In this document: in pieces, positions 9,733 to 40,120 of the stretch | How positions within the stretch are numbered: position 1 is the first letter of the stretch | How the letters are laid out: the number at the start of each line of letters is the position of its first letter | From: an uncultured Clostridium sp. | Lineage (GTDB): Bacteria; Bacillota; Clostridia; Lachnospirales; Lachnospiraceae | Direction: 5' to 3' | Length of the DNA: 43,248 bases | Assembly (NCBI GenBank): GCA_945915475.1 | Contig: CAMEFI010000025.1 | Location: 1 to 43,248, forward strand | The notes under the pieces: model-generated | Databases searched by the model: none | Told to the model about the DNA's origin: nothing | What the model saw: only the letters and a program-made list of their open reading frames with translations | Made by a program: the position numbers and the translations under genes

Positions 9733-9761
9733 TTGACATTTATTTTGTTAAGTGTTATATT
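9733..9761 (+). promoter_or_regulatory. Promoter candidate 1 for the SH3/3D gene
   Basis: TTGACA (9733-9738), 17 bases, TATATT (9756-9761). This would start transcription around 9768, inside the WalR-like box, leaving a leader of about 120 nt. The rest of 9595-9732 holds no recognised gene. Confidence 0.6.
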
Positions 9762-9767
9762 ACATCT

Positions 9768-9805
9768 TGTAACAAGTTTGTAACATTTTGGTATGAAGTT
9801 ATAAT
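9768..9805 (+). promoter_or_regulatory. WalR-like box overlapping promoter candidate 2
   Basis: TGTAAC (9768-9773), five bases, TGTAAC (9779-9784) exactly fits the WalR consensus TGTWAH-N5-TGTWAH known from Bacillus and Staphylococcus. The second half-site overlaps a weak -35 (TTGTAA 9778-9783), which is 16 bases before a perfect -10 TATAAT (9800-9805). An activator box overlapping -35 is the usual layout for OmpR-family activation. A further TTGTAAC lies near 9614-9620. Confidence 0.6.
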
Positions 9806-9889: not shown

Positions 9890-11503
9890 ATGCGACATAA
9901 CAGAAGAGCAGTAATGTCAGAACGCTATAAACTTTATATGAGAAAGAACATCTTTAACGGAAGATATTTTGTTCGGAATATGCAGATTATGTTCTGCGCA
10001 ATCGCATTGATTGCTATTGTGATTGGTGGAATCGTACTTGCTAATTCCGGCAATGAGGATAAGAAACAATTTGCAAAGAATGATAAAATCAGTGTAATGG
10101 ATGCACTTTTTGGAGAGAATGAGGAGATAACAGAGGCAACTACCGAGAAGGTAACGGAAGAAGTTGTCACAACAGAGGAAGTTCAAGTGGCAGTTGCTAC
10201 CGAGGCAGTTGCTACCGAGGCAGTTGTTACAGAGCAACCGACAACGGAACCCATTGTTGCATATACGGAACAGACAGTTGCAAGTCAGCCTGAGGGTGAG
10301 TTCGATGAGAAATGCATTGCTAATGTGGAAGAGACACTGAATATCAGAAGCATTCCAAGTACAGAGGGTGATTTCGTTGGCTCGATGAATGCAGGTGCCA
10401 TTGCAATTGTGGAAGGCACAGATGGTGACTGGACGAAGATTAAGTCCGGTGAAGTGGAAGGATATGTTTTAACACAGTATATATTAACCGGTAAGAGTGC
10501 AGAGGAATTTGCTAAGGATTATGTTACTTTACAGGGAACGATATTAGAGGATGGTGTGAATGTAAGAACAGAAGAATCCACCAGTTCGAATATTGTTACA
10601 GTATTGGATAAAGATGCTACAGTAATAGTTTTAGAGGATCCGAGAGAAGAGAATACAGAAGAGACAACAGAGATGGTGACTTCTACGGAGACAGCATCCA
10701 CAGAGGAAGTAATGACACAGGATACAGAGACTGCAACAAGTGAGACCCTCAGTACAGAAGTACAGACCCAGATGGAAGATACAGAAGAGGCAGTCAGTTC
10801 TGAGACTGCTTCATCAGAAAACGATACAGAAATCTCCACAGAAGCAGATTCAGAAGCATCCACAACACAGAAAACAAGTGAGGCTGTCGCTCAGGCAGCT
10901 GCAGAGAGTGCTGACACAGAGATTACCTGGCTTCCTGTTATGTTAGCAGATGGTCAGACTGGTTATGTGTCTGCGGATCTGGTAGATATTGATCGTTTAT
11001 ATGAGATTGCGGTATCCGCAGAAGAGTTGCAGAGAAGAGAAGAAGAGAGATTAGCAGCTGAGAAAGCAGCAGCAGAAGCTGCAGCCCTTGCAGCACAGCA
11101 ACAGACACAGGTAGTACAGAGCACAACAAGCACAAGTTCCAATAGTACAAGTTCTGATTCAAGTTCAAGTACAGAATATCAGGGAGCAACAACAACACCG
11201 GTTACGGCAACATCATCTGGCGAATGTATTGGTACATTTACGGTAACGGCATATTGTGGTTGTAAGAAATGTAGCGGTGGCAATGGTAAGACAGCAAGTG
11301 GCACGACTCCGACAGAGGGAAGAACTATTGCAGCAGATACCAGCGTGTTACCATATGGCTCTCAGGTTGTGATTGATGGAGTTGTCTATACGGTAGAGGA
11401 TTGTGGCAGCGGTGTCAGAGGGAATCATATAGACATTTTCTTTGCCACACATGAAAAGGCAGTTGCTTATGGTAGCAAGACTGTGAAGGTATATAAGTAT
11501 TAA
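9890..11503 (+). CDS. Membrane-anchored SH3b/3D-domain cell-wall protein
   Basis: Predicted cell-wall hydrolase (537 aa). A basic N-terminus and one transmembrane helix (about 31-51) anchor it, followed by a Thr/Glu/Val-rich spacer. An SH3b domain spans about 140-200 (ETLNIRSIPS...GYVLTQYI). A second SH3b starts at about 214 (GVNVRTEESTSSNIVTVL) but appears interrupted by about 90 Ser/Thr/Glu-rich residues (251-343) before resuming at WLPVMLADGQTGYVSADLV. An Ala/Glu-rich helix (375-405) and a Ser/Thr linker lead to a C-terminal 3D domain (about 447-537) with candidate key aspartates D483, D504 and D515; this fold is related to MltA lytic transglycosylases and is found in YocH and RpfB-like proteins. 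GGAGG lies upstream of the ATG. A WalR-like box precedes it. Substrate is inferred to be peptidoglycan. Confidence 0.88.
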   Translation: MRHNRRAVMSERYKLYMRKNIFNGRYFVRNMQIMFCAIALIAIVIGGIVLANSGNEDKKQFAKNDKISVMDALFGENEEITEATTEKVTEEVVTTEEVQVAVATEAVATEAVVTEQPTTEPIVAYTEQTVASQPEGEFDEKCIANVEETLNIRSIPSTEGDFVGSMNAGAIAIVEGTDGDWTKIKSGEVEGYVLTQYILTGKSAEEFAKDYVTLQGTILEDGVNVRTEESTSSNIVTVLDKDATVIVLEDPREENTEETTEMVTSTETASTEEVMTQDTETATSETLSTEVQTQMEDTEEAVSSETASSENDTEISTEADSEASTTQKTSEAVAQAAAESADTEITWLPVMLADGQTGYVSADLVDIDRLYEIAVSAEELQRREEERLAAEKAAAEAAALAAQQQTQVVQSTTSTSSNSTSSDSSSSTEYQGATTTPVTATSSGECIGTFTVTAYCGCKKCSGGNGKTASGTTPTEGRTIAADTSVLPYGSQVVIDGVVYTVEDCGSGVRGNHIDIFFATHEKAVAYGSKTVKVYKY

Positions 11504-15618: not shown

Positions 15619-18600
15619 ATGAGAAAAACATGGAGAACATTGTTGTTTGCCGGAATATTGGGGGCTGCGTTGCTGCAGCCCTTTGATAATGTTGTGGCAG
15701 CAACAAAGAAAATGAACGAAAAAGAGTTTGAGGCAACGTTGAATGAGGAAGAGAAAAAAGCCTTTGAAATGACAAAAAAATATCAGAAAACGTTGATGGA
15801 TTCAGATATTGACATTCCATATCCACAGAAATATTTTGATTTAACAAAGAAAAGTATTCAGAGATCCCAAAGTGGATTGGTTCGGGCAAATGTGATTCCC
15901 ATTAGCTATGACAGTCGGGAACATGGTGTAGAGACGCCTGTAAAAAATCAGGGGTTACTAGGAACCTGCTGGGCACATGCTATTTTGGATGCTGCACAGG
16001 CGGGATATATAAAAAATAGCGGAAAAGCGTTAGATCTGTCCGAATGGCAGATGGCGTATTTTGCGTATCAGCAACCGGTGGATTTACTTTCGCTGACAGA
16101 AGGGGATACGGTTACGAGAATAGATGAGCAAACTGGAAAGGTACTGGAGTTAGGATCATCAGAATACTATGAGGGTGGTAATCGGTGGTTTTCTATGTTC
16201 AGTCTTGCAAAGGGCATTGGCATTGCAGAAGAATCAGACGCTTCTTATTCGGAACTAATGAAAACAATCAATCAGAATGGAAAGGCATTTCTAAATGAAG
16301 ATAAGGCTTATCTTGCAAATGACTATCGTTTGGAATCTGTAGATATTGTGTCTGTACAGCAGACAGAATTATTAAAGCAGATGATTATGCAGTACGGCGC
16401 AGGTGCCATATCTTATCAGAGTGATGCTGAGTGTTATGATTATGGAGAATTTAATTATTATAACCCGGAAAGTAGCGGTGCAGGACATACAGTTAGTATA
16501 GTAGGTTGGGATGATAATTATCCGAGAGAGAAATTTATATATGAGCCGGAGCATGATGGGGCATGGTTAATTAAGAATTCCTGGGGGGAGCAATGGGGAA
16601 ATGATGGTTATTTCTGGATGTCTTATGATGAATCGAGTATTCAGAACGAATCCGTTGCTTTTTTCAGTATTGAAGATGATGATCAGTATGAGAATGAATA
16701 TCAGTATGATGGTGCCATGGGATTAGAGGTAACACCGGCTGGACAGTATAGCAAAATGGCCAATATTTTTACTGCCCGGAAGAAGGATGAACAGTTAAAG
16801 GCTGTATCTTTTTTTACAGTGGAAAATGATACAGATTATGAGGTTACAGTGTATACAGATCTACAAGAGGAGGAAAATCCGGAAAGTGGAACAATGGTGG
16901 CAACATTATCAGGAAGTAAGCCGCTGCCGGGATATTGTACACTGGATCTGGAAGAAGTGGTTCCGCTAACTCAGGGAGAATGTTTTGCAGTTGTGGTCAA
17001 ACAACAAGTAAAAGGCAACAATACCCGGATGTATATTGACTGTGATGCAGATTACTCGTGGGTATATTCCCAATGTAAAGCTAAAAAAGGAGAATCATTT
17101 TTATACGGAGAGGATGGCTGGACTGATATTTCGGCAGATGGAGAAACAAACGTTAGAATAAAAGCGTTTACCACAGATGGAAATGAAACAGATGCGGGGG
17201 AGTTGAGGTTTGAACAGGAGCGGTATTCGGTTACTGCAAACTGTTCACAGCAGCTCAATATTCTCTCTGATGAGGAGGTAGTAAATGATCAGCTGAAATT
17301 GACATTTCAGGTAGAAGATTCGCTGATTGCGTCTGTTGATGGAATGGGAAGGGTTTATGGTAAGACAAACGGAGTGACCAAAGTGGTGGCATTCTGTGGT
17401 GAGGATAAGGCAGAATGTACGGTAGTTGTGAAGGAAGAGCCGATTACGCGTTTGATAAAAGAGGATAATTATGCAACGGCAGATATGCCGTTTGCGGCGA
17501 AGGTAGGTCAGGTGGTTACATTTCCTTATAAGAAAGAACCGGTGTATGGTGCCGGAGCGGTAGAGTGGAAGGTAACAGATGGCAATATGGCGGTACAAGG
17601 AGAATCATCGGCAATTTTGAAAGAAAATGGTACGTTTACAGCGACAAAACCAGGCAGCTATGTCATTACAGCAACTGCAGCAAGTGGAGCATTTGTACAG
17701 TATTATGTAGAAGCATCTTTGGATATTACGGATTGCAGCACAGATATATCGCTAATGCAGAGTCAGCATCCTTACGGAAAGAATGAAGTAAAGGTATATA
17801 CTTATAAGGGATCTTTAAAAGAGAAACCATTGAAAATACATTTTTCCAAGGACTCAAAATTACAGAAAAAAAACAGTTATGTGTATTTGTTTGAAGGAAC
17901 GACGGAGGTAGAGGAGGCGATATCAGAGTATCTGTTATCAGACTATGAGTATGGGTATGGCTATATGTATGCAGATAGTTTGATTGGTTCCTATACAGAT
18001 GTGGAATTATCGGATCAGACATTTTATGTGAGTAGTAGATCCTTTTCCATTGTTTTGATTACAAAGGATGAGGGGGATACAGAATATGGTTTTGATGTGG
18101 ATTCCGTGGAAAAGGTCAAACCTTTGACATATTTGAAGTATGAGCAATCACAGTATGTTTGGTCAGTGGGGGATGAAAATGTACAGTTACTTCCGGAAAC
18201 AGAACCGGCTGATGCAAATGAGGAAATTGAATATATCTCTTCCAAACCATCTGTGGTTGAGGTGAACCGTAATGGATCTGTAACAATTAAGAAAGCGGGA
18301 ACGGCGACCATAACTGCTCAGGGGGCATATGGTGAACTGGAAACCAGGACAGAGGTTGTCATACAGGAATCAGACACCTTTGAAGAGATATCGTTTACAC
18401 AGGATGCTATTACCATGGAACGAAATGAAGAACTGGATCTGGCATTTCAGCAGCCGGTGGAGGGATATGATGTTACATATTCTTCTTCTGCACCGGGAAA
18501 AGTCAGTGTTGATAAAAATGGTCATATTATTGCAGCAGGTGTGATAAATGATGCAATGATTACGGCAGAGGTGACCATGAATGGAAAATTGTGTCAGGCA

Positions 18601-20538
18601 ATCACACATGTTACGGTAAATGCCCCGGAATCCATGGAAGTTACAGATATGCAGTCGGTACATACTTATGTGGAAGGAATGGATGAATATTATACATACG
18701 TGGCTTCAGAGGATACAAAGGGTATACGTCTGTATTTTGATGAAAAATCTCGGCTGAAATGTTCAGAAGATTATATCGAAGTACTAGACGGCAATCAAAA
18801 TGTAATTAGAAAATGGCCGGATGAGAATGAATGGGATGAGTTTGGTGGACAGTCGGTAACGGTGCCGGGTAAGATTGCACAGATTCATTATGTTACACAT
18901 ACCGAAGAAGAAGAGGAGGATTCGGATTATGAATTACGGAGCCGTGAGGTAGAAACAGAAGCTGGTATGCAAAGATATGGATTCCGGGTAAAGCGGATTG
19001 TAACCGGTAATATAGCAGAAAAGATAGAACTCAGTGATATTACATTGGATCTTACGGAGTATACAAAAGATAGTGCAAGGTTAAAAGCAATATTATCACC
19101 ATCTGATGCAATTGATAACGTAACCTATACAGTAGAGAATGAGTCTGTTGCAACAATAGGATATAATGGACTGTTGTACGCAATAACGAATGGAGTAACC
19201 AAAGTTACGGCAATGACAGATTCAGGATTGCAGGCGACAGCCGTGGTTACTATTAAGGGAATTCCTATGACATCGCTGTCTGTAGAGGATAATGGGAATA
19301 AAGTTGAGAAGATTACAATGACTGGTGAGGAAGATATCAGTTATTCCATCATTACGGAACCATCGAATCAGACAGAAAAGATTATTGTAGAATCCAGCGA
19401 TGAATCTGTTGCATATGGATATATTAATGATGATGGAAGATTGTATATAGGTGCCTATCATGGTGGAGACACTGTATTAACACTTAAGACACCATCGGGA
19501 AGTTGTAGTCAGGAGATTTTGGTGCATGTAAATCCTAAAAATCCAGGGAAAAAATATAATATTTCTAATTGTAATGATTTTTCGGAGTATTCAGATGGTA
19601 ATAATGGAATTCCGGCGGAACAGATGACGGTAGAGAAGCTTCAGTCTGCCCATCCGTATGAGAGTAATTGTGTGATTGTGTGGAGTTATCGGAAACCGGG
19701 TGCAGAATCCGTTACCCTTACATTTGATGATAAGACTTATTTTGAAGAAGATTATGACAAATTGTATGTATATACATATGAAGGAAAAGGAATTGGAGGA
19801 TATACCCATGATTCTTTAATGAACCAGTCCATTACCATTCCGGATTGTGGATTCCGGTTAGTGCTGGTATCGGATGAAGGCATGGAATGTTATGGATTTG
19901 CTTTGAAAGATTTAACTGTGAAAATGAAAGATGGAACAACGAATCAGGATGCTGGAAATGAGGAATCCGGAACTTCTACAATTCCAGATTCAGGCAAACA
20001 GGAACAGAGTGATGTACAAATTCTGGATTCTGGTAATCAGACAACAACGCAACCGGGTACACAAATGCCGGATGCAGGTATACAGGAGAAAACGGTGGGC
20101 ACCGTTGTAACAAGTAGCAACGCACAGTACAAGATTACTGCACAGGCAGGAAATGCAACAGGTACGGTAACATTTGTGAAATCCATCCAGGATAAGAAGA
20201 AGCTTACCTCCCTTACCATTCCGGCTTCCATTACGATAGATGGCAAGACATACAATGTAACAGCCATTGAGAAAAATGCCTGCAAGAAGTATGCAAAGCT
20301 TAAGAAAGTGGTAATCGGTAAGAATGTGAAATCCGTTGGTGCCAATGCCTTTGCCGGATGCAAAGCATTGAAGAATGTGAAGATTCAGACTACACTCCTT
20401 ACAAAGAAGACAATCGGTAAGAAGGCATTTTCCGGAATTCATAAAAAGGCAGTGATTAAAGTACCGACGAAGAAAATAAAAGAATATCAGAAGGCATTGT
20501 ATGGAAAAGGTACAAGTAAGTCAGTGAAAATTAAATAA
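15619..20538 (+). CDS. Secreted C1A (papain-like) cysteine protease with BIG2, CUB-like and LRR_5 modules
   Basis: A 1639-aa exported protein. Signal peptide about 1-28. The peptidase domain (about 92-355) has the oxyanion Gln Q111 and nucleophile C117 in PVKNQGLLGTCWAH, H290 in GAGHTVSIVGWDD, and N320 in IKNSWG, so the papain triad is intact. Residues about 360-515 resemble the lectin-like domain found after clostridial C1A peptidases. BIG2-type repeats lie at about 530-605, 835-915 and 1135-1212. Three CUB-like modules start at 711, 1009 and 1339, each opening with an (M/L)QSxHxY motif and closing with YGF. A Thr/Gln-rich spacer (1437-1500) leads to a basic LRR_5-like C-terminal module (1501-1639) shared with the LRR_5 protein at 21611. 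Substrate unknown; host- or diet-derived protein is a guess. Confidence 0.9.
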   Translation: MRKTWRTLLFAGILGAALLQPFDNVVAATKKMNEKEFEATLNEEEKKAFEMTKKYQKTLMDSDIDIPYPQKYFDLTKKSIQRSQSGLVRANVIPISYDSREHGVETPVKNQGLLGTCWAHAILDAAQAGYIKNSGKALDLSEWQMAYFAYQQPVDLLSLTEGDTVTRIDEQTGKVLELGSSEYYEGGNRWFSMFSLAKGIGIAEESDASYSELMKTINQNGKAFLNEDKAYLANDYRLESVDIVSVQQTELLKQMIMQYGAGAISYQSDAECYDYGEFNYYNPESSGAGHTVSIVGWDDNYPREKFIYEPEHDGAWLIKNSWGEQWGNDGYFWMSYDESSIQNESVAFFSIEDDDQYENEYQYDGAMGLEVTPAGQYSKMANIFTARKKDEQLKAVSFFTVENDTDYEVTVYTDLQEEENPESGTMVATLSGSKPLPGYCTLDLEEVVPLTQGECFAVVVKQQVKGNNTRMYIDCDADYSWVYSQCKAKKGESFLYGEDGWTDISADGETNVRIKAFTTDGNETDAGELRFEQERYSVTANCSQQLNILSDEEVVNDQLKLTFQVEDSLIASVDGMGRVYGKTNGVTKVVAFCGEDKAECTVVVKEEPITRLIKEDNYATADMPFAAKVGQVVTFPYKKEPVYGAGAVEWKVTDGNMAVQGESSAILKENGTFTATKPGSYVITATAASGAFVQYYVEASLDITDCSTDISLMQSQHPYGKNEVKVYTYKGSLKEKPLKIHFSKDSKLQKKNSYVYLFEGTTEVEEAISEYLLSDYEYGYGYMYADSLIGSYTDVELSDQTFYVSSRSFSIVLITKDEGDTEYGFDVDSVEKVKPLTYLKYEQSQYVWSVGDENVQLLPETEPADANEEIEYISSKPSVVEVNRNGSVTIKKAGTATITAQGAYGELETRTEVVIQESDTFEEISFTQDAITMERNEELDLAFQQPVEGYDVTYSSSAPGKVSVDKNGHIIAAGVINDAMITAEVTMNGKLCQAITHVTVNAPESMEVTDMQSVHTYVEGMDEYYTYVASEDTKGIRLYFDEKSRLKCSEDYIEVLDGNQNVIRKWPDENEWDEFGGQSVTVPGKIAQIHYVTHTEEEEEDSDYELRSREVETEAGMQRYGFRVKRIVTGNIAEKIELSDITLDLTEYTKDSARLKAILSPSDAIDNVTYTVENESVATIGYNGLLYAITNGVTKVTAMTDSGLQATAVVTIKGIPMTSLSVEDNGNKVEKITMTGEEDISYSIITEPSNQTEKIIVESSDESVAYGYINDDGRLYIGAYHGGDTVLTLKTPSGSCSQEILVHVNPKNPGKKYNISNCNDFSEYSDGNNGIPAEQMTVEKLQSAHPYESNCVIVWSYRKPGAESVTLTFDDKTYFEEDYDKLYVYTYEGKGIGGYTHDSLMNQSITIPDCGFRLVLVSDEGMECYGFALKDLTVKMKDGTTNQDAGNEESGTSTIPDSGKQEQSDVQILDSGNQTTTQPGTQMPDAGIQEKTVGTVVTSSNAQYKITAQAGNATGTVTFVKSIQDKKKLTSLTIPASITIDGKTYNVTAIEKNACKKYAKLKKVVIGKNVKSVGANAFAGCKALKNVKIQTTLLTKKTIGKKAFSGIHKKAVIKVPTKKIKEYQKALYGKGTSKSVKIK

Positions 20539-21227: not shown

Positions 21228-21610
21228 TTTCATTCCTCCTTTGTTATAGCAGGAATAAAAAGTATGCACCAGAATACGTATCGTAAGCACCTGAAAATTC
21301 CTGCCTGATTCAATAATTGTTGGGATAATAAAAGCATGAATTTTCGGGATAATTGAAATAAACGTAAACTATAACGACAAGTATGCAGTACCTAAGACCA
21401 TACCGAATATGAAAATAAAGCTTTGCTAGAATTCTAACATTCCTATTCAATAAAAGCAAGAAAAATATATTTCGGTGATAATATAAGTTGATTGCAATCA
21501 ACTCTGCTTACATTTTGAGGCTCATTTTTCTTGTTATTTTCTCCATTGTGTGATACCTTAGAGAAAGACAGATTATCTTAGATTACACAAGAAGACAGGG
21601 AGAAATGATA
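21228..21610. other. Intergenic region before the LRR_5 gene
   Basis: About 380 AT-rich bases between the Rpn remnant and the LRR_5 gene. The only clear structure is the 18-bp palindrome at 21486-21503. No convincing ORF, RNA fold or strong promoter hexamer pair was found. Confidence 0.5.
21486..21503. promoter_or_regulatory. Perfect 18-bp palindrome upstream of the LRR_5 gene
   Basis: AGTTGATTGCAATCAACT is fully self-complementary with no central spacer and lies about 108 bp before the LRR_5 start. Its form suits a dimeric repressor operator. No regulator is assigned. Confidence 0.5.
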
Positions 21611-23392
21611 ATGATAAGAATGAGACAGATTGTGCTTGGAATATGCTTTGCAGCCTTGGTGTGTCTATTGTATCCTATAAGGAATGTGAGGGCGCAACAG
21701 GATACGACGGCTTATAGTATATTAGATGATGAGAATAATATTGAGTATGGTGTAATAGCGAATGGGAAATTAGATTATGTGAAAGGGGCCAGCGGAGGTC
21801 TTGATTTGACGTGGATTGTAGATGAGGCCAAGAAATATGATATTACCATTACATCTATCGGCTCCCATGCTTTTCAGAATAGTCCCGACATTACCGGTGT
21901 ATATCTTCCCTCTGATATCAGAAGGATAGAAGATGGGGCATTTCAGGATCTAGAAGCACTTACGACAATCCGGTATTGCACGGATTCTCAACTGGAATAT
22001 ATCGGAGATCATGCATTTATGGGAGCTGAGAAATTAAGAAGGTTTTTAGAGGAAGAGGAGGATTCCTCCGATATCTGTCATTTCCCGGATTCCCTTACTA
22101 CGCTTGGGGAATATGCTTTTAGTGGAACATTTATATCTGATTTTGTGGTGCCGGATAAAGTGACAGAGATTCGGAAAGGAACCTTTCGTAATTGTTTTTC
22201 TCTGAATAAGGTTACGTTGCCGGATACGCTGACTGACATTGGAGAACGGGCATTTGAAAATACCGGGTTAGGTATATTTATGATACCGGACAAAGTAACG
22301 ACTATTGGGGAAAGTGCATTTGAGGGTTCCGAAATATGGATGACATCTGTTCCGGACGGAGTGACGGAGATTGCGGACGGAGCGTTTCGCAATTCAAAAA
22401 TGTTGCAGATTACAATGCCGGAAACGATAACAAAAATCGGTGCCAACGCATTTGAAGGTACTCCTATGAAGTCTGTAATCATTCCGGATGCGGTGACTTC
22501 CATTGGAGATTGTGCATTTTTAAATGCTCATAATTTAGCCCAGCTTACACTACCAGACACCGGAGAATTTACAATTGGAAAACAGGCATTTTATGGTACG
22601 GCAATAGAAGATCTTACGATTCCACAAAACTGCAAGAAGATAAGTGAACAGGCATTTTCTGGTGACGAACAGGAACAAAGTACATTAGCAACAGTGAGAA
22701 TTGAGAATAGTACGGTGGTGATTGCCAACAATGCTTTCTCCAGGACTACGGTGATCTATGCGGAAACAGGCTCCACGGCATATATATATTCAACTAATAA
22801 TGGTAATACATTTGTGAGTACATCTGTGAATGTATCTGAAGACGATGATGTAGAAGGTGATAAAAAGGGAAATGATAATGCAACCACACAGGAGACAGGT
22901 AATACAAATGAGCAACAGAAAACCGGTCTTATGATTGGCAGACAATATACCATTGGAGGTCTGATCTATCAGGCGAAGGATGACAAGACGGTGATATTTG
23001 TGAAACCGGCGAAGAAGACCATTACCCGTCTGGTCATACCGGATACATTTACGATAGAAGGAATAAAGTATCCGGTTATCGGTGTGGAATCGAAAGCCTG
23101 TTATCGATGTAAAAAGTTGAAACAGGTAAAGTTAGGAAATCAGATACAGGATATTGGCAAACAGGCTTTTGCGGAATGTACGAAGCTGCAGAAGATAACT
23201 TTTGGGAAGGGATTGATTCACATTGGTGCAAAGTGCTTTGCCAAGGATAAGAAGCTTAAGACAGTGGTCATTCGCAGCAAACAGCTAAAGACAGTGGGAA
23301 AAGGCTGTATGAAAGGCACAAATCGTAAGAATATCGTTGTGCCTAAGAATAAAAAAGCAAAGTATCAGAAGCTATTTCAAAAGGCCGCATAA
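21611..23392 (+). CDS. Secreted BspA-like LRR_5 surface protein
   Basis: Exported protein of about 593 aa. The ATG at 21611 is favoured because AGGGAG sits 8 bases upstream; an ATG at 21605 is too close. Signal peptide about 1-28 (IVLGICFAALVCLLYPI, ending VRA). Residues about 45-395 are BspA-type leucine-rich repeats, each about 23 residues with the pattern IPDxVTxIGxxAFxx (for example KVTEIRKGTFRNCFSL, GVTEIADGAFRNSKML). An Asp/Asn/Thr/Gln-rich linker (about 400-440) precedes a basic module (about 440-593) with further LRR_5-like repeats and the ending KYQKLFQKAA, which matches the end of the 1639-aa protease. No LPXTG motif. BspA-like proteins of oral and gut bacteria can bind host proteins; no ligand is known here. 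Confidence 0.88.
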   Translation: MIRMRQIVLGICFAALVCLLYPIRNVRAQQDTTAYSILDDENNIEYGVIANGKLDYVKGASGGLDLTWIVDEAKKYDITITSIGSHAFQNSPDITGVYLPSDIRRIEDGAFQDLEALTTIRYCTDSQLEYIGDHAFMGAEKLRRFLEEEEDSSDICHFPDSLTTLGEYAFSGTFISDFVVPDKVTEIRKGTFRNCFSLNKVTLPDTLTDIGERAFENTGLGIFMIPDKVTTIGESAFEGSEIWMTSVPDGVTEIADGAFRNSKMLQITMPETITKIGANAFEGTPMKSVIIPDAVTSIGDCAFLNAHNLAQLTLPDTGEFTIGKQAFYGTAIEDLTIPQNCKKISEQAFSGDEQEQSTLATVRIENSTVVIANNAFSRTTVIYAETGSTAYIYSTNNGNTFVSTSVNVSEDDDVEGDKKGNDNATTQETGNTNEQQKTGLMIGRQYTIGGLIYQAKDDKTVIFVKPAKKTITRLVIPDTFTIEGIKYPVIGVESKACYRCKKLKQVKLGNQIQDIGKQAFAECTKLQKITFGKGLIHIGAKCFAKDKKLKTVVIRSKQLKTVGKGCMKGTNRKNIVVPKNKKAKYQKLFQKAA

Positions 23393-23394
23393 GA

Positions 23395-24819
23395 TTAATT
23401 GGTAAAGGAATCGTAGGAGTCATCCTCTGGAAGAGTGATAAAATGATCGCTTTGTTCAGAGGATTTCTTTTGGTTGCCTTCCTTTGAAGTCTGGATTTGT
23501 GTTGTCTGCTTTGTGGTAGTTTCGGTTGTGCTTTCTGTGGTGGCATGGGTGGTAGCCTGTGTAGTAGAAGAGTTCTCATTTGTACCAGAGTCTGTATTGG
23601 AACTTGACTCAGAGGTGGTACTGTTTCCGGTAGTTTCTGGGTTGTCCTTTGCAGAGATGCTCTCAGTATTCTTTTCAGTAGATGTATTGTGGGATGGAAC
23701 CCGGTGTTGTGGCCAGAATGGAACCGCTATGCCTGAGAATCCAAGTCCACAGTAGATAAAGAGCAAAAAAAGGGCAAGAAGAATCAGGGGGATAGCTTTC
23801 TTCTTTTGTAATTCTCCTGACATTATTCTTATGGAAGGATACTTTTTCTTTGAGACATAGGAAATAGAAGTGGGAAGCATGGTCTTCTCACTTTTGTAAG
23901 ACTGGTGAATTGCCTGTGCCCGTTGGCTGGTTATTGCCAGTGGCGGAATGCAGAGTGCCTGATACAGGGCCTCCATGGTGGGATAGCGGTCTCCGGCAGC
24001 AAGCTGTAAGCCGGTTGTTATGATATCTGCCTGCCAGGAGCGAATCTGTGCGTGATTTGTAAGAGGTGGTAACTTCGCACCCTGTAACCGTTCCAAAGCA
24101 TCTGTTGGAGGAAAGCCGGTCAAGGCAAAGTAGATAGTTCCGCAGATTCCGTAAACATCTGTCCATGCTCCCAGCTTTCCGGTTGCAAGATATTGTTCCG
24201 GTGGTGCATAGCCGGATTTTAGGATTATGGTTTTGTTGTCAGGAGTGGCATCGCTTTCAAATGCGGCAGAACCAAAATCAATGAGATGTAACTGGTTGTC
24301 TGTTCCAAGAATAACATTATCCGGGCTGATATCCCGGTGAAGTAATCCTTTTGCATGAACCTGGATTAAGTCACGGAGAACCGGAAGCATAAGCTTTGAT
24401 AATTCATCGAAGGAAAGTGGTTCATTGTCCGTAACATACTGTTTTAAAGTAATGCCCTCAATATATTCCATAACAAGATAAATGGTTCCGTTTGCCTCTA
24501 AAATATCCTTCACATTTACAATATGCTCCAAATTCTGGAATTCCAGTAAAATGCTGGCTTCTGTCAGAAAATGCCGGCGTTCCCGTTCAAACAGGTCGGC
24601 TTGGTGAGTATAGGGAAGTACCTTATTGTCAGATGCCCGGTATGCGATGTTGTCGGGAAAATATTCCTTGATGGCAACCTTTTCTTCGGTATGTAAAATG
24701 TTGCAGCAATAGGTGATTCCGAATCCACCTTCCCCGATAACACGGTCTGTTATGTAGTTGTGTGGAAGAATTGTTCCGGCGGCCAAAGCCCGCGTGAAAG
24801 CTTGTGTCTCTTTGTTCAT
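23395..24819 (-). CDS. Membrane-bound Hanks-type Ser/Thr protein kinase
   Basis: A 474-aa eukaryotic-like kinase. Kinase domain about 22-290: glycine loop GEGGFGITY (29-37), ATP lysine K51 in AIKEYFP, catalytic loop HRDISPDN with D163, DFGSA with D181, and GYAPPEQY in the activation segment. The HRD loop has Ser where most kinases have Lys (HRDxKxxN), seen in some bacterial subfamilies. A single transmembrane helix at about 342-366 is followed by about 105 external residues, almost all Thr/Ser/Glu/Asn with no PASTA repeats. Its start codon overlaps the stop of the FHA gene (ATGA), so the two are translationally coupled. No PP2C phosphatase gene is nearby. It ends 2 bp from the LRR_5 gene, tail to tail. 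Confidence 0.93.
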   Translation of the reverse strand: MNKETQAFTRALAAGTILPHNYITDRVIGEGGFGITYCCNILHTEEKVAIKEYFPDNIAYRASDNKVLPYTHQADLFERERRHFLTEASILLEFQNLEHIVNVKDILEANGTIYLVMEYIEGITLKQYVTDNEPLSFDELSKLMLPVLRDLIQVHAKGLLHRDISPDNVILGTDNQLHLIDFGSAAFESDATPDNKTIILKSGYAPPEQYLATGKLGAWTDVYGICGTIYFALTGFPPTDALERLQGAKLPPLTNHAQIRSWQADIITTGLQLAAGDRYPTMEALYQALCIPPLAITSQRAQAIHQSYKSEKTMLPTSISYVSKKKYPSIRIMSGELQKKKAIPLILLALFLLFIYCGLGFSGIAVPFWPQHRVPSHNTSTEKNTESISAKDNPETTGNSTTSESSSNTDSGTNENSSTTQATTHATTESTTETTTKQTTQIQTSKEGNQKKSSEQSDHFITLPEDDSYDSFTN

Positions 24820-25340
24820 GATTCACTCCAGTTAAAGTCAGGACCACATAGCGGGATGAAGATGAGGATGCAGTCTCCAATCTGAATATGGTCGTGATGG
24901 GAAAGGGTTACAGGTTGTTTTGCTGTGACGGGTACATGATTCAGCAATACGCCATTGCACTGGGTTGTCAGTGTAAATACTGCGGTGTCTGTGTCATAGT
25001 GGATAAGGGCATGGTTGTTGCGGGATACCGTTGGTTCTTTGAATAACATTACATTCATGCTGGTATCGCGACCGATGTGGTTGTTGCCGGTATATAATGA
25101 GAAACAATCGCCTTTCATGTTGCCTGCGATACATACAAGCCATCCGGAAACAAGGCGTTTGCTCATCTGTGAGTAGGTATCGGCAAGCTTATTGTCCGGT
25201 ACATAGGTGTCGATGTCCTTTTGCTTTGTGGCTGGGGCTGTGTCATTGGTAATATGTATCTTTTCGTTGGCACAGTGGGGACAGGTCTGTAATTTATCGG
25301 CGTTATAAAAGTGTCCGTTGGGACATTTGATAAGATTCAT
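24816..25340 (-). CDS. Zinc-ribbon FHA-domain protein
   Basis: A 174-aa cytosolic phosphothreonine reader. The N-terminus has a ribbon-like metal site, CPNGH then CPHC (C6, H10, C20, C23). A linker leads to a forkhead-associated domain (about 80-165) with IGRDTSMNV, VSRNNHALI and NGVLLN, keeping the Gly-Arg, Ser-x-x-His and Asn-Gly residues needed to bind phosphothreonine peptides. It overlaps the kinase gene by 4 bp and is probably a substrate or scaffold of that kinase. AAGGAG lies 12 bases before the ATG, a rather long spacing. It follows the LytTR-FHA gene by 59 bp in the same operon. Confidence 0.9.
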   Translation of the reverse strand: MNLIKCPNGHFYNADKLQTCPHCANEKIHITNDTAPATKQKDIDTYVPDNKLADTYSQMSKRLVSGWLVCIAGNMKGDCFSLYTGNNHIGRDTSMNVMLFKEPTVSRNNHALIHYDTDTAVFTLTTQCNGVLLNHVPVTAKQPVTLSHHDHIQIGDCILIFIPLCGPDFNWSES

Positions 25341-25399
25341 TGGTCTTGTATGCTCCTTGTATAGGGTTCTAATATACTACGTGAAAGATTGGTGTGCCA

Positions 25400-26044
25400 T
25401 TACAATAGTTGGAATACCGATGTCTGGTCACCAAAACACAGGTGGGTTCCTGGTTGCAACAGATATTCCTGCCTGGGAACCAGTCTTGTTCCTTCCTGGA
25501 CAAACGTTCCATTAGTGGAATCATCCACAATGGTATAAGTTCGTTCCTTCGCATGGTAGGTAATCTTGCAATGTACCCGGCTTACCATGGGAAGTTGTAT
25601 GATAATGTCAGCGGCTTCTTCGTCTCTGCCAATGAGCACAGGCTGTTCCTTTTGAAGGCGGATGATATAGTCAGAATAAATGCCGGATATCCCGATTAAA
25701 GTGCCGGCAGCAGAATCATTTTGCAGGAATTTCCGCATTTTTTTCTGGTATTGTCTGCTGACGGGAATTCCATCACTGGTATCCTTAAGCATCAGACACT
25801 GGTTATCATAACCGGTAATCTGGGAAATGGCTACTAAATAGCTTTGATGGCACCGGATAAAGGAATCCAGATGCTGTTCAATGGTAGAAAGCTTTTCGTA
25901 ACAGCTGTATGCATCCGATGCTGTATGTATCGTGATGACCCGATGATTGCTTTCAATATATAGTATGTCTTCAAGGGGGATTCGATGGGCTGCATCTCTT
26001 GTAGATACATGAATCGCATCTGCCCCAAACGATAATTCACTCAT
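25400..26044 (-). CDS. LytTR DNA-binding/FHA fusion regulator
   Basis: A 214-aa protein joining two domains that are rarely fused. Residues about 10-105 form a LytTR DNA-binding domain: RIPLEDILYIESNHRVITIH, then IRCHQSYLVAISQI and GIPVSRQYQKKMRKF, matching the hallmark ILYIES / RxHRSYLVN / IPVSRxY pattern. Residues about 127-212 form an FHA domain: IGRDEEAADIII, MVSRVHCKI and DDSTNGTFV. There is no receiver domain, so control by phosphoaspartate is not expected; binding of a phosphothreonine peptide through FHA is the likely input. The ATG at 26044 has GAGGTG upstream; an in-frame GTG at 26053 overlaps that ribosome site. It heads the operon with the FHA and kinase genes. Confidence 0.9.
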   Translation of the reverse strand: MSELSFGADAIHVSTRDAAHRIPLEDILYIESNHRVITIHTASDAYSCYEKLSTIEQHLDSFIRCHQSYLVAISQITGYDNQCLMLKDTSDGIPVSRQYQKKMRKFLQNDSAAGTLIGISGIYSDYIIRLQKEQPVLIGRDEEAADIIIQLPMVSRVHCKITYHAKERTYTIVDDSTNGTFVQEGTRLVPRQEYLLQPGTHLCFGDQTSVFQLL

Positions 26045-26081
26045 TTGTATCACCTCGGAAATTGGTAATCATACTTGGAAT

Positions 26082-36925: not shown

Positions 36926-38323
36926 ATGAAGACAAGAAAAGGTTACAAAACGTATCCACTTACAGTGGCACAGAAGTTCCATACGTATTATATGAATTTC
37001 TGTCCGAAAAAAGAGGTTGTGAATATTGGAACCAGTCTTACCATTGAACATGAGCTGGACGTGGATGTATTAAGACAGGCAATCTATAAAGCCTATGAGC
37101 GCTGCGAATCTATGCGTCTGCGGTTTGCATACGATAAGAAGGAAGAGCAGTGGTATCAGTATGTGGTGGACAAGGAAGAAAGAGAGATTGAGTATGTGGA
37201 TTTCTCTGGAAAGACCATGGAAGAAGCGGAAGCAATCATGACAGAATGGACACAGGTTCCGTTTAAAAGAGAAGATTCACCGATGAATCGGGTAGTCATT
37301 ATCAAGACGCCGGACGGCAATCAGGGAATCTATCTATTAGGAGACCATTTCACCATTGATGCACAGTCTCTGATCTGCTTTCTGAAGGATGTTATTCAGA
37401 TATATTGTAATACCATGTTTGAAGGTGTGGAATATCCGAAAGAGATGCGTTCTTACATTGAACAGTTGCAAAAGGATCTTGCTTATGAGGCAGGAAGCAA
37501 GGCGCAACAAAAGGACAGAGAATTTTTCTACAAGCTGATTGAACAGTCCGAACCGATCTATAATGGAATAGAAGGACCTCAGGCATTGATTGAGGAACGT
37601 AAGCATAATCCAAAGGCCAGAGCTGCGAAATTTATTTCCAAGAATGTTGACTCGGCGCTGGATATCTTTCATTTGGAGGAGGAACCGACAGCCCGGTTGA
37701 TGAAATTCTGTGAGGAACAGCATGTTTCGTTACAATGTCTTCTGATTATGGGAATCCGCACCTTTTTGCAGAAAATGAATGGAAATGATGATGTATCCAT
37801 CAATGTGGCATATGCAAGAAGAGCAACCTTGGCAGAGAAGAAGTCAGGTGGTACCAGAATTCATTCCTTCCCATTCCGAACCATTATTCCGGAGGACAAG
37901 ACGTTCCTTGAAGGAATTCATATGATCCGGGACGGACAGAATGAGATATTCCGCCATACCAATTTCGACCCGGTAGAGTATCGTGCGTACAGAAGCAAGG
38001 TATATCCGGTTGATCCGGGATGTTCCTATGAGCCAATGTCTTTGACCTACCAGCCAATGACCATGAAAGACCAGGGTTTAAGTAAATTAGGGGATATTAA
38101 GTACAAGACAAAATGGTATCCAAACGGGGCAACAACACAGGCAATGTACCTGACTGTTATGCACAGACCGGATGATAACGGACTGGATTTTAATTTTGAA
38201 CACCAGGTAGAGGCCATTTCAAGAGAAACCTTAGAGTATTTTTACTACTATATGTGCAAGATTATGTTCAAGGGCATAGAAAAGCCATATATGAGTATTG
38301 GAGATATTATTAAATTAATTTAG
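36926..38323 (+). CDS. Stand-alone condensation-domain-like acyltransferase
   Basis: A 465-aa protein with the outline of an NRPS condensation domain: N-terminal YPLTVAQKFHTYYMNF, SMRLRFAYD (the LR.F pattern of motif C2), GDHFTIDAQS in place of HHxxxDG (H141 is the catalytic second His and D145 the Asp; the first His is Asp), and a later NVAYARRATL segment. Such enzymes join a carrier-bound acyl group to an amine or alcohol. It stands alone, with no adenylation or carrier domain fused, and sits 12 bp before an acyl carrier protein gene. Substrates unknown. It might instead act as an acyltransferase of the WES/PapA type, which shares the fold and motif. Confidence 0.85.
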   Translation: MKTRKGYKTYPLTVAQKFHTYYMNFCPKKEVVNIGTSLTIEHELDVDVLRQAIYKAYERCESMRLRFAYDKKEEQWYQYVVDKEEREIEYVDFSGKTMEEAEAIMTEWTQVPFKREDSPMNRVVIIKTPDGNQGIYLLGDHFTIDAQSLICFLKDVIQIYCNTMFEGVEYPKEMRSYIEQLQKDLAYEAGSKAQQKDREFFYKLIEQSEPIYNGIEGPQALIEERKHNPKARAAKFISKNVDSALDIFHLEEEPTARLMKFCEEQHVSLQCLLIMGIRTFLQKMNGNDDVSINVAYARRATLAEKKSGGTRIHSFPFRTIIPEDKTFLEGIHMIRDGQNEIFRHTNFDPVEYRAYRSKVYPVDPGCSYEPMSLTYQPMTMKDQGLSKLGDIKYKTKWYPNGATTQAMYLTVMHRPDDNGLDFNFEHQVEAISRETLEYFYYYMCKIMFKGIEKPYMSIGDIIKLI

Positions 38324-38335
38324 GAGGATGAAGAT

Positions 38336-38563
38336 ATGTTTGAAAAATTAGCAGATATCATCGTGCAGTATGTTGAGGTGGACAAAGAGGATATTAAGCC
38401 GGAATCAAGATTTATGGAGGATCTGGGATTTACTTCTTTTGATTTTATGAGTATGTTAGGTGAGATTGAGGATGAACTGGATGTGGAGATTGACCAGGAG
38501 GAGGCAGCAGATATCCGCACGGTACAGGAGGCAGCAGATTATTTAGAGAAGATTTCAGCCTAG
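38336..38563 (+). CDS. Acyl/peptidyl carrier protein
   Basis: A 75-aa carrier protein: four-helix pattern with the phosphopantetheine site at S34 in EDLGFTSFDFMSM. The usual DSL is TSF here, a tolerated but uncommon change of the residue before the Ser. Strongly acidic, as expected. AGGAGG lies before the ATG. It lies between the condensation-like enzyme and the ligase gene, 18 bp from the latter. It is probably dedicated to this pathway rather than to fatty-acid synthesis. No phosphopantetheinyl transferase gene is in the window, so the housekeeping one must act. Confidence 0.93.
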   Translation: MFEKLADIIVQYVEVDKEDIKPESRFMEDLGFTSFDFMSMLGEIEDELDVEIDQEEAADIRTVQEAADYLEKISA

Positions 38564-38581
38564 ATAGCAGGAGGGGTTAAT

Positions 38582-40120
38582 ATGGATGTATTGAGCAGTA
38601 CGATTCGGGAGCTTTTAGTTAAGTCGGAAGCCACATATGGTTCATGGGATGCATTCCGGTATAAGGTTCGGAAACCGGATGGAGAAGGGAAAAAGGCGGT
38701 ACAAGTCGAAAACAAAACCTATACAGATCTGAAGAATGATTCAGAGTGTTTCTCTGCAATGTTAACTGGTTTGCAGGAAAACGGAAAACATATTGCCATT
38801 GTTGGTGCAACATCTTATGAATGGGTGGTTACATATATGGGAACTGTCAATAGTGGAAGTGTGGCGGTGCCTTTGGATGCACAGCTCCCGGTGGAAGATT
38901 TGTGTGATTTGATTAACCGTGCAGATGTGACTACACTGGTGTATGATGAAGGAAAAACACAATTAGCAAAAGAAGCCATGAATAATTGTCCGAAGTTACA
39001 GCATGCTATTTCCATGAAGGACGAGGGAATGGTAGAGGGTGCATTATCCTTCTGGAAATCGTTGAAGGAACAGCAGCCGGGGTACGATTATGCTCCAAAG
39101 CCTGAGGATCTGGCAACCATCATGTTTACATCCGGTACAACAGGAAAGAGCAAGGGCGTTATGCTGACACATCGTAATCTGGCAGAGAATGCAACCTGCC
39201 TGGATATGAAGATTGAACCGGGAACTGTCATTTTGTCTGTGTTACCAATACATCATGCTTATTGTATGAGCATGGATATTTTAAAAGGTCTTTCCTTAGG
39301 AATGGTAATCTGCATTAATGATTCCCTGTTAAGAGTTGCAAAGAATATCAAACTATTTGAGCCGAATATGATCCTGATGGTTCCCCTTATGATTGAGACC
39401 TTGGCAAAGAAATTAGAGGAAGCGGCCTGGATGCCTGCCGGAATTGTAAAAGCAAAGGTATTTGGTAAGCAGTTTCACACAATCTGCAGCGGTGGTGCCT
39501 ATTTGAATCCTGCATATCTGGATACCTTTAAAAAGTTTGGAATCACTATTTTGCAGGGATATGGAATGACAGAGTGTTCACCGGTTATCAGTACGAATCT
39601 CAGCTGGAACAGTAAAAAAGGTTCTGTTGGTAAACTTATGCCGAACTGTGAAGCAAAGACGGTAGACGAAGAGTTGTGGGTGAAGGGTTCTAGTGTTATG
39701 CAGGGATACTACCAAATGCCGGAGGAGACAGCTGATACCTTGGAGGATGGATGGCTTAAGACCGGAGATCTCGGCTATGTGGATGAAGATGGTTTTGTTT
39801 TCCTGACAGGAAGAAAGAAAAACCTCATCATTACAGCAAATGGCGAGAATATATCTCCGGAGGAAATCGAGAATAAGATTGGGGAAAACCGTATTGTCCA
39901 GGAGGTTTTGGTGCGCGATAATGAAGGTGTAATCGAAGCGGAGATTTTCCCGGATTATGAGTATGCAAAAAAGAAAAAGATTAAAGATATGAATAGTGAA
40001 CTTCAAGGCATCATTGATGCATATAACAAGACGGTTCCTCCTTATAAAAAAATCTTCAAACTGAAAATCCGTGAGGTGGAGTTTGAGAAGAACACAACGA
40101 AAAAGATTAAACGCTTTTAA
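38582..40120 (+). CDS. AMP-dependent acyl ligase (ANL superfamily)
   Basis: A 512-aa adenylate-forming enzyme. Motifs: TSGTTGKSKG (183-192) for ATP phosphate, GYGMTECSP, LKTGDLGYVDEDGFVFLTGRKKN (hinge region), ENISPEEIE and the C-terminal TTKKIKR with a catalytic lysine at about 507-508. The sequence is closest in feel to long-chain acyl-CoA ligases. With an adjacent carrier protein it probably activates a fatty or amino acid and loads it on that carrier. AGGAGGGG lies before the ATG. It is last in the TetR-controlled operon; no terminator separates it from leuS, 128 bp on. Confidence 0.92.
   Translation: MDVLSSTIRELLVKSEATYGSWDAFRYKVRKPDGEGKKAVQVENKTYTDLKNDSECFSAMLTGLQENGKHIAIVGATSYEWVVTYMGTVNSGSVAVPLDAQLPVEDLCDLINRADVTTLVYDEGKTQLAKEAMNNCPKLQHAISMKDEGMVEGALSFWKSLKEQQPGYDYAPKPEDLATIMFTSGTTGKSKGVMLTHRNLAENATCLDMKIEPGTVILSVLPIHHAYCMSMDILKGLSLGMVICINDSLLRVAKNIKLFEPNMILMVPLMIETLAKKLEEAAWMPAGIVKAKVFGKQFHTICSGGAYLNPAYLDTFKKFGITILQGYGMTECSPVISTNLSWNSKKGSVGKLMPNCEAKTVDEELWVKGSSVMQGYYQMPEETADTLEDGWLKTGDLGYVDEDGFVFLTGRKKNLIITANGENISPEEIENKIGENRIVQEVLVRDNEGVIEAEIFPDYEYAKKKKIKDMNSELQGIIDAYNKTVPPYKKIFKLKIREVEFEKNTTKKIKRF

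Follow-up and report, generated by a model that had tools for sequence, protein, structure and literature searches.

FHA domains that read phosphothreonine have a pocket with conserved Gly-Arg, Ser-Arg-x-His and Asn-Gly motifs; in the small FHA protein OdhI, residue Thr14 precedes the FHA domain, and StkP of Streptococcus pneumoniae is a PASTA-type kinase. Here we describe a three-gene cassette encoding a Hanks-type Ser/Thr kinase, a zinc-ribbon FHA protein (ZnR-FHA) and a LytTR-FHA fusion protein, found in a 43,248-nucleotide stretch of DNA (the window) that constitutes contig CAMEFI010000025.1, here C25, of the 3.09-Mb genome GCA_945915475.1 from an uncultured Clostridium sp. of the Lachnospiraceae. 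The closest described systems are compared here as they appear in passages of the papers cited. PknH of Mycobacterium tuberculosis is a Ser/Thr kinase that controls EmbR, a DNA-binding regulator with a C-terminal FHA domain; EmbR differs from our fusion in having an OmpR-type DNA-binding domain and a BTA domain in place of LytTR, and those passages mention neither a zinc-ribbon FHA adaptor nor repeated cassettes beside surface-protein genes (PMC4601284). StkP also controls a LytTR regulator, ComE, at Thr128; however, ComE is described with a receiver and LytTR, the phosphosite lies in the receiver, and the connection is presented as crosstalk and not one operon (PMC6010298). The term FHA does not occur in the text of that paper.

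The LytTR Regulatory Systems HdrRM and BrsRM share with our cassette a receiver-less LytTR regulator. Their operons have direct repeats, 11-13 bp apart, ahead of their own promoters and are autoregulated, as we propose for the cassette, but the partner in those operons is a membrane inhibitor without a kinase domain (PMC6193735), whereas here it is a kinase and an FHA adaptor. GarA and OdhI are small FHA proteins with a kinase-target threonine near the N terminus (OdhI is phosphorylated at Thr14; PMC2784874), and their chains, like that of EmbR, were matched by the FHA part of ZnR-FHA in profile searches. ZnR-FHA differs from them in having a zinc ribbon before its linker, a DTxxP-like motif and a DNA-binding partner in its operon, and we do not suggest that it acts in 2-oxoglutarate metabolism. 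A search of open-access full text (subscription papers and preprints lay outside it) returned no paper joining LytTR with "FHA domain" or "forkhead-associated", and among open-access titles on LytTR architectures, on Clostridia FHA/PASTA neighborhoods and on BspA or Hanks-type kinases in Lachnospiraceae none resembled this system. Kinase control of an FHA transcription factor is already known; within the reach of these searches, the LytTR-FHA protein, the adaptor and the repeated cassette are new.

The first-pass annotation, made from the letters of the window, had described three same-strand genes for these proteins, and open reading frame (ORF) calling and Pfam searches confirmed them, all on the minus strand, as follows.

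25400..26044, minus strand: LytTR-FHA regulator, with LytTR at 25724-25990 and FHA at 25430-25639 (Pfam; pocket residues in 47 fusions).
24816..25340, minus strand: ZnR-FHA, 174 amino acids, with the ribbon at about 25272-25325 and FHA at about 24843-25157 (Pfam, ribbon conservation, profile comparison).
25206..25208, minus strand: codon of Thr45 in the ZnR-FHA linker, a candidate phosphorylation site (alignment conservation).
23395..24819, minus strand: GGFGITY-type Hanks Ser/Thr kinase, 474 amino acids, with a predicted transmembrane stretch followed by a Ser/Thr-rich tail (Pfam, catalytic residues).

The kinase and ZnR-FHA genes share a 4-bp overlap. Pfam E values were 3e-31 for the kinase (Pkinase), 2.7e-10 for the FHA domain of ZnR-FHA, and 3.8e-23 (LytTR) and 4e-16 (FHA) for the fusion. 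The ORF finder called the fusion at 25400-26053 with a GTG start; a GAGGTG precedes an ATG nine bases further in, at 26044, which is therefore the likelier start. In profile searches the LytTR domain of the fusion matched AgrA and ComE chains. In this protein Pfam reported only LytTR and FHA, together with an FHA-like family below the cutoff: there was no receiver match ahead of LytTR, and no OmpR-type DNA-binding or BTA domain.

We propose that the cassette is a self-contained phosphothreonine-to-DNA relay that is autoregulated and tied to neighboring surface proteins, a reading to which we give a probability of roughly 60%. The membrane kinase would sense a cell-wall or surface signal through its outer part, which has PASTA in 22/37 cassettes and is a Ser/Thr-rich tail here, and would phosphorylate a threonine inside the cell, the likeliest target being Thr45 in the linker of ZnR-FHA. 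The FHA domain of LytTR-FHA would then read phosphothreonine on the ZnR-FHA adaptor or on the kinase, and this would alter the binding of LytTR to paired repeats, switching the cassette operon itself and, in some cases, the adjacent BspA-type gene. Phosphothreonine and FHA would thereby replace, or add to, an older receiver-aspartate input. We infer all the phosphorylation and binding events, which residue is the phosphosite, the direction of regulation and which genes in the window are targeted; what the sequences themselves show is the domain content, the intact catalytic and pocket residues, co-inheritance, linkage, the loss or decay of receivers, and promoter repeats in some of the relatives. 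These observations support the earlier proposal of a kinase-to-LytTR-FHA relay as a prediction of phosphorylation, phosphopeptide binding and regulation.

The window's genome gave 13 FHA, 10 kinase and 13 LytTR matches, and at four loci (on contigs C25, C23, C3 and C12) LytTR was followed by FHA in one ORF. These four loci share the same parts, a LytTR-FHA protein with or without a receiver, a ZnR-FHA of 170-174 amino acids and a GGFGITY kinase, and in all four the LytTR-FHA gene lies 29-619 bp from a kinase ORF. Among the remaining nine LytTR matches, one (C39, about 4.1 kb) had a kinase ORF within 5 kb and eight had none. A genome scan with an alignment of the four fusions gave 262 relatives, and the best 80 loci were retained; metagenome-assembled genomes of Lachnospiraceae or Clostridiales contribute many of them, several coming from goat and deer rumen or gut. 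In a search of 115 genomes the full-length matches, among those listed, fell mostly in the window's own genus, and 40 regions were taken from these. Removal of 18 duplicates left 47 distinct fusions. In this search for LytTR-FHA architectures, chosen beforehand as a test of the proposal, a same-strand kinase ORF lay within 5 kb of 39/47 fusions (41/52 when five fusions from other genera were added), and the proposal was not refuted.

A sample of 397 genomes from the family, covering 334 genera and with up to seven candidates scored per genome, yielded at least five genomes of five genera with both domains in one stop-free frame (among the matches listed, G000, G354 with two, G216, G398 and G402); in a further genome, G065, the frame was split by an in-frame stop. 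Among 398 genomes of the phylum that were scanned, the fusion was found only in the window's own genome. Carriage by mobile elements was rejected, as tblastn searches with LytTR-FHA returned seven plasmid and six phage records, all partial single-domain matches and none covering 80% of the query.

We defined a cassette as all three genes on the same strand within 5 kb, with a kinase of more than 300 amino acids, which gave 37 cassettes. Pairwise distances in the three gene trees correlated at 0.77-0.79 across these cassettes, compared with at most 0.33 in 2,000 shuffles of all labels. Eight genomes carry two to four cassettes each (23 cassettes), and in these, partners were shuffled only among paralogues of the same genome. 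Such shuffles gave mean correlations of 0.43-0.53, and for none of the three pairings did any of the 5,000 come up to the real correlation. The failure of within-genome shuffles to match the real pairing shows that kinase, adaptor and regulator have been kept together as units.

The catalytic residues of the kinase are invariant, and the phosphothreonine pocket in the FHA domain of the fusion is near-invariant. Within the 37 cassette kinases K51, D163, N168 and D181-F182-G183, which include the catalytic Lys, the HRD Asp, the Asn and DFG, are invariant. The first-pass annotation had stated that the key FHA residues of the fusion are intact, and all seven pocket residues are indeed present in the window protein; across the 47 fusions G142, R143, S158, R159, H161, N181 and G182 were found in 47, 47, 46, 47, 47, 47 and 47. 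The claim of a one-helix kinase with a Thr/Ser-rich external tail also held: the best hydrophobic stretch after the kinase domain spans residues 343-361 (predicted transmembrane) and is followed by a C-terminal tail of 112 residues, 39% of them Ser or Thr, with a weak, below-cutoff Pfam likeness to mucins. PASTA domains occur in 22/37 cassette kinases, in the same genome in those of C3 and C12 and in neither C25 nor C23; the window kinase had no PASTA match in Pfam at E values up to 0.1. As a separate observation, the C-terminal tip on the presumed outer side is acidic (at least four acidic residues in the last 16) in 28/37 cassette kinases and in 13/76 neighboring proteins, often together with an aromatic residue; in the window it is encoded at 23395-23445, and sister kinase genes have it at their 3' ends.

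The ribbon residues C6, H10, C20 and C23 of ZnR-FHA are kept in 43/43 homologues. The linker of about 40 residues between ribbon and FHA domain is variable except at Thr45 (33/35 aligned cassette rows) and Gln40 (30/35), no other position exceeding 24. Two cassette proteins outside this alignment, those of loci L230 and L232, also have the threonine, bringing the count to 35/37, and it is found in 37/43 of all aligned ZnR-FHA proteins, cassette or not. Conservation thus marks Thr45 as a candidate phosphorylation target. The ETTS motif of GarA and OdhI is not present in ZnR-FHA.

The first-pass annotation had stressed that the LytTR protein lacks a receiver, and this is correct for the window protein but not for the family as a whole: by profile, a receiver is present in 30/47 fusions and absent from the ORF in 17/47, including the window's. 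In alignments judged by eye about 20/30 receivers keep the phospho-aspartate and the acidic pocket and about 10/30 are damaged, with Glu replacing the phospho-Asp in three (L026, L087, L164), loss of acidic-pocket residues in six (L027, L079, L082, L084, L156, L158) and an unusual receiver in L083. In the window's genome the C3 fusion has a receiver match with, by eye, Glu in place of the phospho-Asp, and the C12 fusion has a receiver-like N terminus that Pfam did not report. Since 30/47 relatives carry receivers, intact or decayed, the receiver's absence from the window protein marks the end of a series.

In 12 loci (L090, L091, L092, L094 of Butyribacter intestini, L102, L130, L161, L184, L185, L235, L236 and L237) a receiver-LytTR protein and a small stand-alone FHA protein are encoded by separate genes, two of these loci, L184 and L185, being from the window's own genus. 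The two genes directly adjoin in 10/12 loci and have a ZnR-FHA gene between them in L236 and L237, and most of the 12 loci also carry kinases or further FHA genes. Their adjacency as separate genes in relatives indicates that the fusion is derived and joined genes that were already neighbors. At L161:1110-2189 (G065), receiver-LytTR and FHA lie in one frame with a single stop between them, which resembles an intermediate from separate to fused. Elsewhere in the window's genome, contig C9 holds what appears by eye to be a type VII secretion-like locus (L028, L029) with kinase, PP2C and FHA proteins, a LytTR gene, a large FHA-bearing protein and several small WXG100-like genes; kinase-FHA-LytTR modules may have come from a wider setting of this kind.

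LytTR proteins typically bind paired 9-bp direct repeats 10-13 bp apart (PMC11347149), which in LytTR Regulatory System operons lie just upstream of the operon's own -35 element (PMC6193735). In the 260 bp upstream of the 37 cassettes, 8-mer direct repeats peaked at a period of 21 bp, with 44 matches (mean 7.8 and maximum 16 in 20 shuffles) in 12 regions (at most 8 in shuffles), and of the periods 15-33 only 21 exceeded its own shuffles. The exact pair TTACA-N16-TTACA, whose spacing resembles that of LytTR sites, was found in 9/37 cassette upstreams, in 3/30 upstreams of neighboring leucine-rich repeat (LRR) genes (30 of 31, one being too short) and in 0/165 control upstreams; with one mismatch allowed these counts became 11/37, 5/30 and 3/165. 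The core pair at any other period of 15-30 occurred in at most two cassette regions. When the best hexamer within 12-36 bp was sought for the eight gene-facing pairs, and not for the four facing away, all eight had a TATAAT-like hexamer (5-6 positions matching) at 23-24 bp past the second repeat, an arrangement that an activator site would be expected to have. The close relatives L069-L071 account for three of these eight pairs, and because L078/L081 and L088/L183 are also close relatives the repeat counts are not independent; collapsed by eye into five groups, the nine promoter pairs gave a Fisher p of about 1e-4. These patterns are good evidence that some cassette LytTR proteins regulate their own cassettes, but they cannot be transferred directly to the window, whose own cassette lacks the exact pair.

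Similar half-sites at an 11-bp period are used by the OmpR-type regulators WalR and PhoP, and the assignment to LytTR thus rests on the 21-bp period and on location. A weight matrix found no convincing site near the C25, C3 and C12 cassettes, and in the aligned upstreams of other cassette groups no shared block like that of L069-L072 was seen by eye. In the window, TTACATCTTGTAACAAGTTTGTAACATTTTG at 9760-9790 holds a pair (9760/9781) ahead of a gene for an SH3_3/3D protein (9890-11503); this pair was not assigned to LytTR because the same letters contain TGTAAC-N5-TGTAAC, which resembles a WalR box. A pair that four genomes have in common, beside an ABC transporter gene, was set aside. Three sites elsewhere were noted. 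At L308 (G019:C12:46504-46563) an exact TTACA-N16-TTACA-N28-TATAAT precedes the gene of a predicted secreted protein, one similar by eye to surface proteins encoded close to the C3 and C12 cassettes of the window's genome. Composite sites with one mismatch precede genes that by eye are PP2C-like, at L316 (G004:C2:4593-4652) within a kinase/FHA cluster of the unfused form, and LytTR-like, at L309 (G002:C22:62772-62831), hinting that unfused relatives may use the same repeat.

Surface-protein genes stand beside the window cassette, as the earlier reading of a tail-to-tail arrangement had it; the 3' ends of the LRR and kinase genes are 2 bp apart. The relevant features are these.

21605..23392, plus strand: BspA-type LRR_5 protein, a candidate target (LRR_5 at 9.1e-93; adjacency enriched across cassettes).
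15619..20538, plus strand: papain-like cysteine protease with lectin-like, Big_2 and LRR_5 domains (Pfam); a surface-protein gene and possible target.
21508..21517, plus strand: lone TTACATTTTG half-site 97 bp ahead of the LRR gene, a weak candidate without a 21-bp partner.

We compared the nearest ORFs within 2.5 kb on either side of the 37 cassettes, together with ORFs between cassette genes (76 neighbors), with 76 control ORFs drawn at random from 162 in 20 hand-chosen same-genus regions by greedy longest-ORF calling. LRR_5 (BspA-type) was found in 31/76 neighbors, and a local search with three LRR proteins also marked 31, belonging to 28/37 cassettes. The control count was at most 1/76, as LRR_5 was absent from the best 25 of 173 families, which reach down to single-member families; taking it as one gave a Fisher p of about 4e-10, with the neighbor count not collapsed for kinship among cassettes. 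Of the control regions, 19 lie on fusion-bearing contigs and one on C2, and the genomes of some cassettes fall outside their coverage. The enrichment agrees with the earlier suggestion that surface-protein genes beside the operon may be its targets and makes the BspA-type gene beside the window cassette a candidate target of the relay. PP2C was found in two of the 76 neighbors; the absence of a nearby PP2C gene, also noted in the first-pass annotation, held for PP2C_2, the family searched, whose four matches lie on C2, C9, C18 and C66 and none on C25.

Within the window's genome the LRR link holds at C25 and C12, and LRR_5 genes are also found within one gene of two further kinases there, those on C39 and C7. 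The TTACATTTTG half-site stands alone upstream of the window LRR gene, and half-sites of this type with at most one mismatch gave seven matches in the window against a chance mean of 6.99. Between this half-site and the LRR gene, at 21554-21582, TACCTTAGA and TATCTTAGA repeat at a 20-bp period (8/9 letters), close to the start codon; this is about the chance expectation over the ten regions scanned.

The closest alternative to the proposed relay is a direct docking route like that of EmbR and PknH, in which the FHA domain of LytTR-FHA would dock on the autophosphorylated kinase and the regulator would itself be phosphorylated, with ZnR-FHA as a separate GarA/OdhI-like switch that folds onto Thr45 of its own chain, once this is phosphorylated, and has a different target. 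It has a precedent in EmbR, a PknH substrate that depends on its own FHA domain (PMC4601284), and the profile matches of ZnR-FHA and the Thr14 phosphorylation of OdhI fit it as well. However, ZnR-FHA tracks LytTR-FHA in the trees (r = 0.791) as closely as the kinase does (0.788), which suggests that the adaptor is part of the same wire, and in the C23 ZnR-FHA the FHA serine-arginine is replaced by leucine-proline, making self-docking unlikely there; we consider this route unlikely, though not remote. Less probable again is a receiver-led two-component regulator, in which a histidine kinase encoded elsewhere would drive a receiver-LytTR-FHA protein and FHA would only tether it near the membrane kinase. 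The roughly 20/30 receivers with an intact phospho-aspartate and acidic pocket speak for such an input, but it is weakened by the window protein and 16 other fusions having no receiver in the ORF and by the damage in about 10/30, while the FHA pocket varies in one protein at one position. Moreover, no histidine-kinase family was among those found in at least two of the 76 neighbors, and the window's divergent histidine kinase gene adjoins an OmpR-type regulator gene. That the three genes are neighbors with unrelated roles, a remnant of a larger signaling locus, is the most improbable of these readings: related loci do hold several kinase, FHA, von Willebrand factor A (vWA) and PP2C-like genes together, but the within-genome partner shuffles, the 39/47 linkage and the fusion itself argue against it. 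Chance neighborhood was rejected on the same linkage and shuffles.

Several findings nevertheless weigh against the self-contained, autoregulated relay. Eight of the 47 fusions have no kinase within 5 kb in the DNA examined. For two of these (L083, L164) the contig breaks off shortly downstream; the contigs of L178 and L180 are themselves short (5.1 and 6.7 kb), with similar neighbors and no visible part of a cassette; in the subtype of L089 and L167, ZnR and FHA are split and LRR-type surface-protein genes come next; and L103 is closely preceded by a separate receiver ORF and lies, by eye, among WXG100-like genes. In the remaining one, L176:2901-4114 (G015), the LytTR-FHA gene is shortened by a stop, as if kinase and regulator had decayed together in this single case. 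Among the 39 linked fusions, the kinase of L074 is a 92-amino-acid fragment, that of L170 is a kinase-FHA protein of another type, and that of L084 is cut by a contig end. Of the five fusions outside the genus only L230 and L232 have a kinase, with ZnR-FHA on the same strand; L231 and L233 have no same-strand kinase and ZnR-FHA, and L234 is at a contig edge. The linker threonine is missing from 2/37 cassette ZnR-FHA proteins, C23 has no LRR neighbor, and the LRR gene at C3 is about 5 kb away. All four cassettes of the window's genome lack the exact repeat pair, and C23 comes closest with one mismatch. In LRR upstreams period 21 gave 25 matches (shuffle maximum 16), but counts above the respective shuffle maximum were also obtained at seven other periods (15, 19, 20, 26, 27, 30 with 30 matches, and 31), and when one mismatch was allowed period 16 was ahead of period 21 (7 regions versus 5). 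A large TTACA-pair regulon is unsupported, as genome-wide counts on both strands were close to those of a reversed-pattern control (25/18, 41/33, 21/22, 34/34 and 39/25, pair/control, in five genomes); pair plus -10 box with one mismatch gave 31 matches versus 20 for the control, summed over 26 genomes.

With these points set against co-inheritance, linkage and receiver decay, we retain the self-contained relay as the preferred reading. A broader version of it, which we hold tentatively and at somewhat less than even odds, is that such cassettes form a duplicated, insulated phosphothreonine counterpart of two-component signaling, with several private kinase/adaptor/LytTR-FHA sets per genome, often each with its own surface protein, in which FHA reading has replaced receiver-aspartate phosphorylation in evolution. 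Bacterial kinases of the Hanks type are generally portrayed as pleiotropic and present in small numbers per genome (PMC4601284); this lineage seems to have dedicated kinase-to-promoter wires, up to four per genome. The proposed route, fusion of a phosphothreonine reader to a LytTR DNA-binding domain with the receiver left to decay, would if true be a directly testable case of one signaling chemistry replacing another, and would suggest how large BspA-type surface proteins may be controlled in some Lachnospiraceae. If the cassette works as it looks, it would be a new gene-switching route for such bacteria.

Away from the cassette, at 36926-40120 of the window, a gene for a condensation-domain protein adjoins one for an AMP-binding enzyme; the two are perhaps a small peptide- or lipid-making pair.

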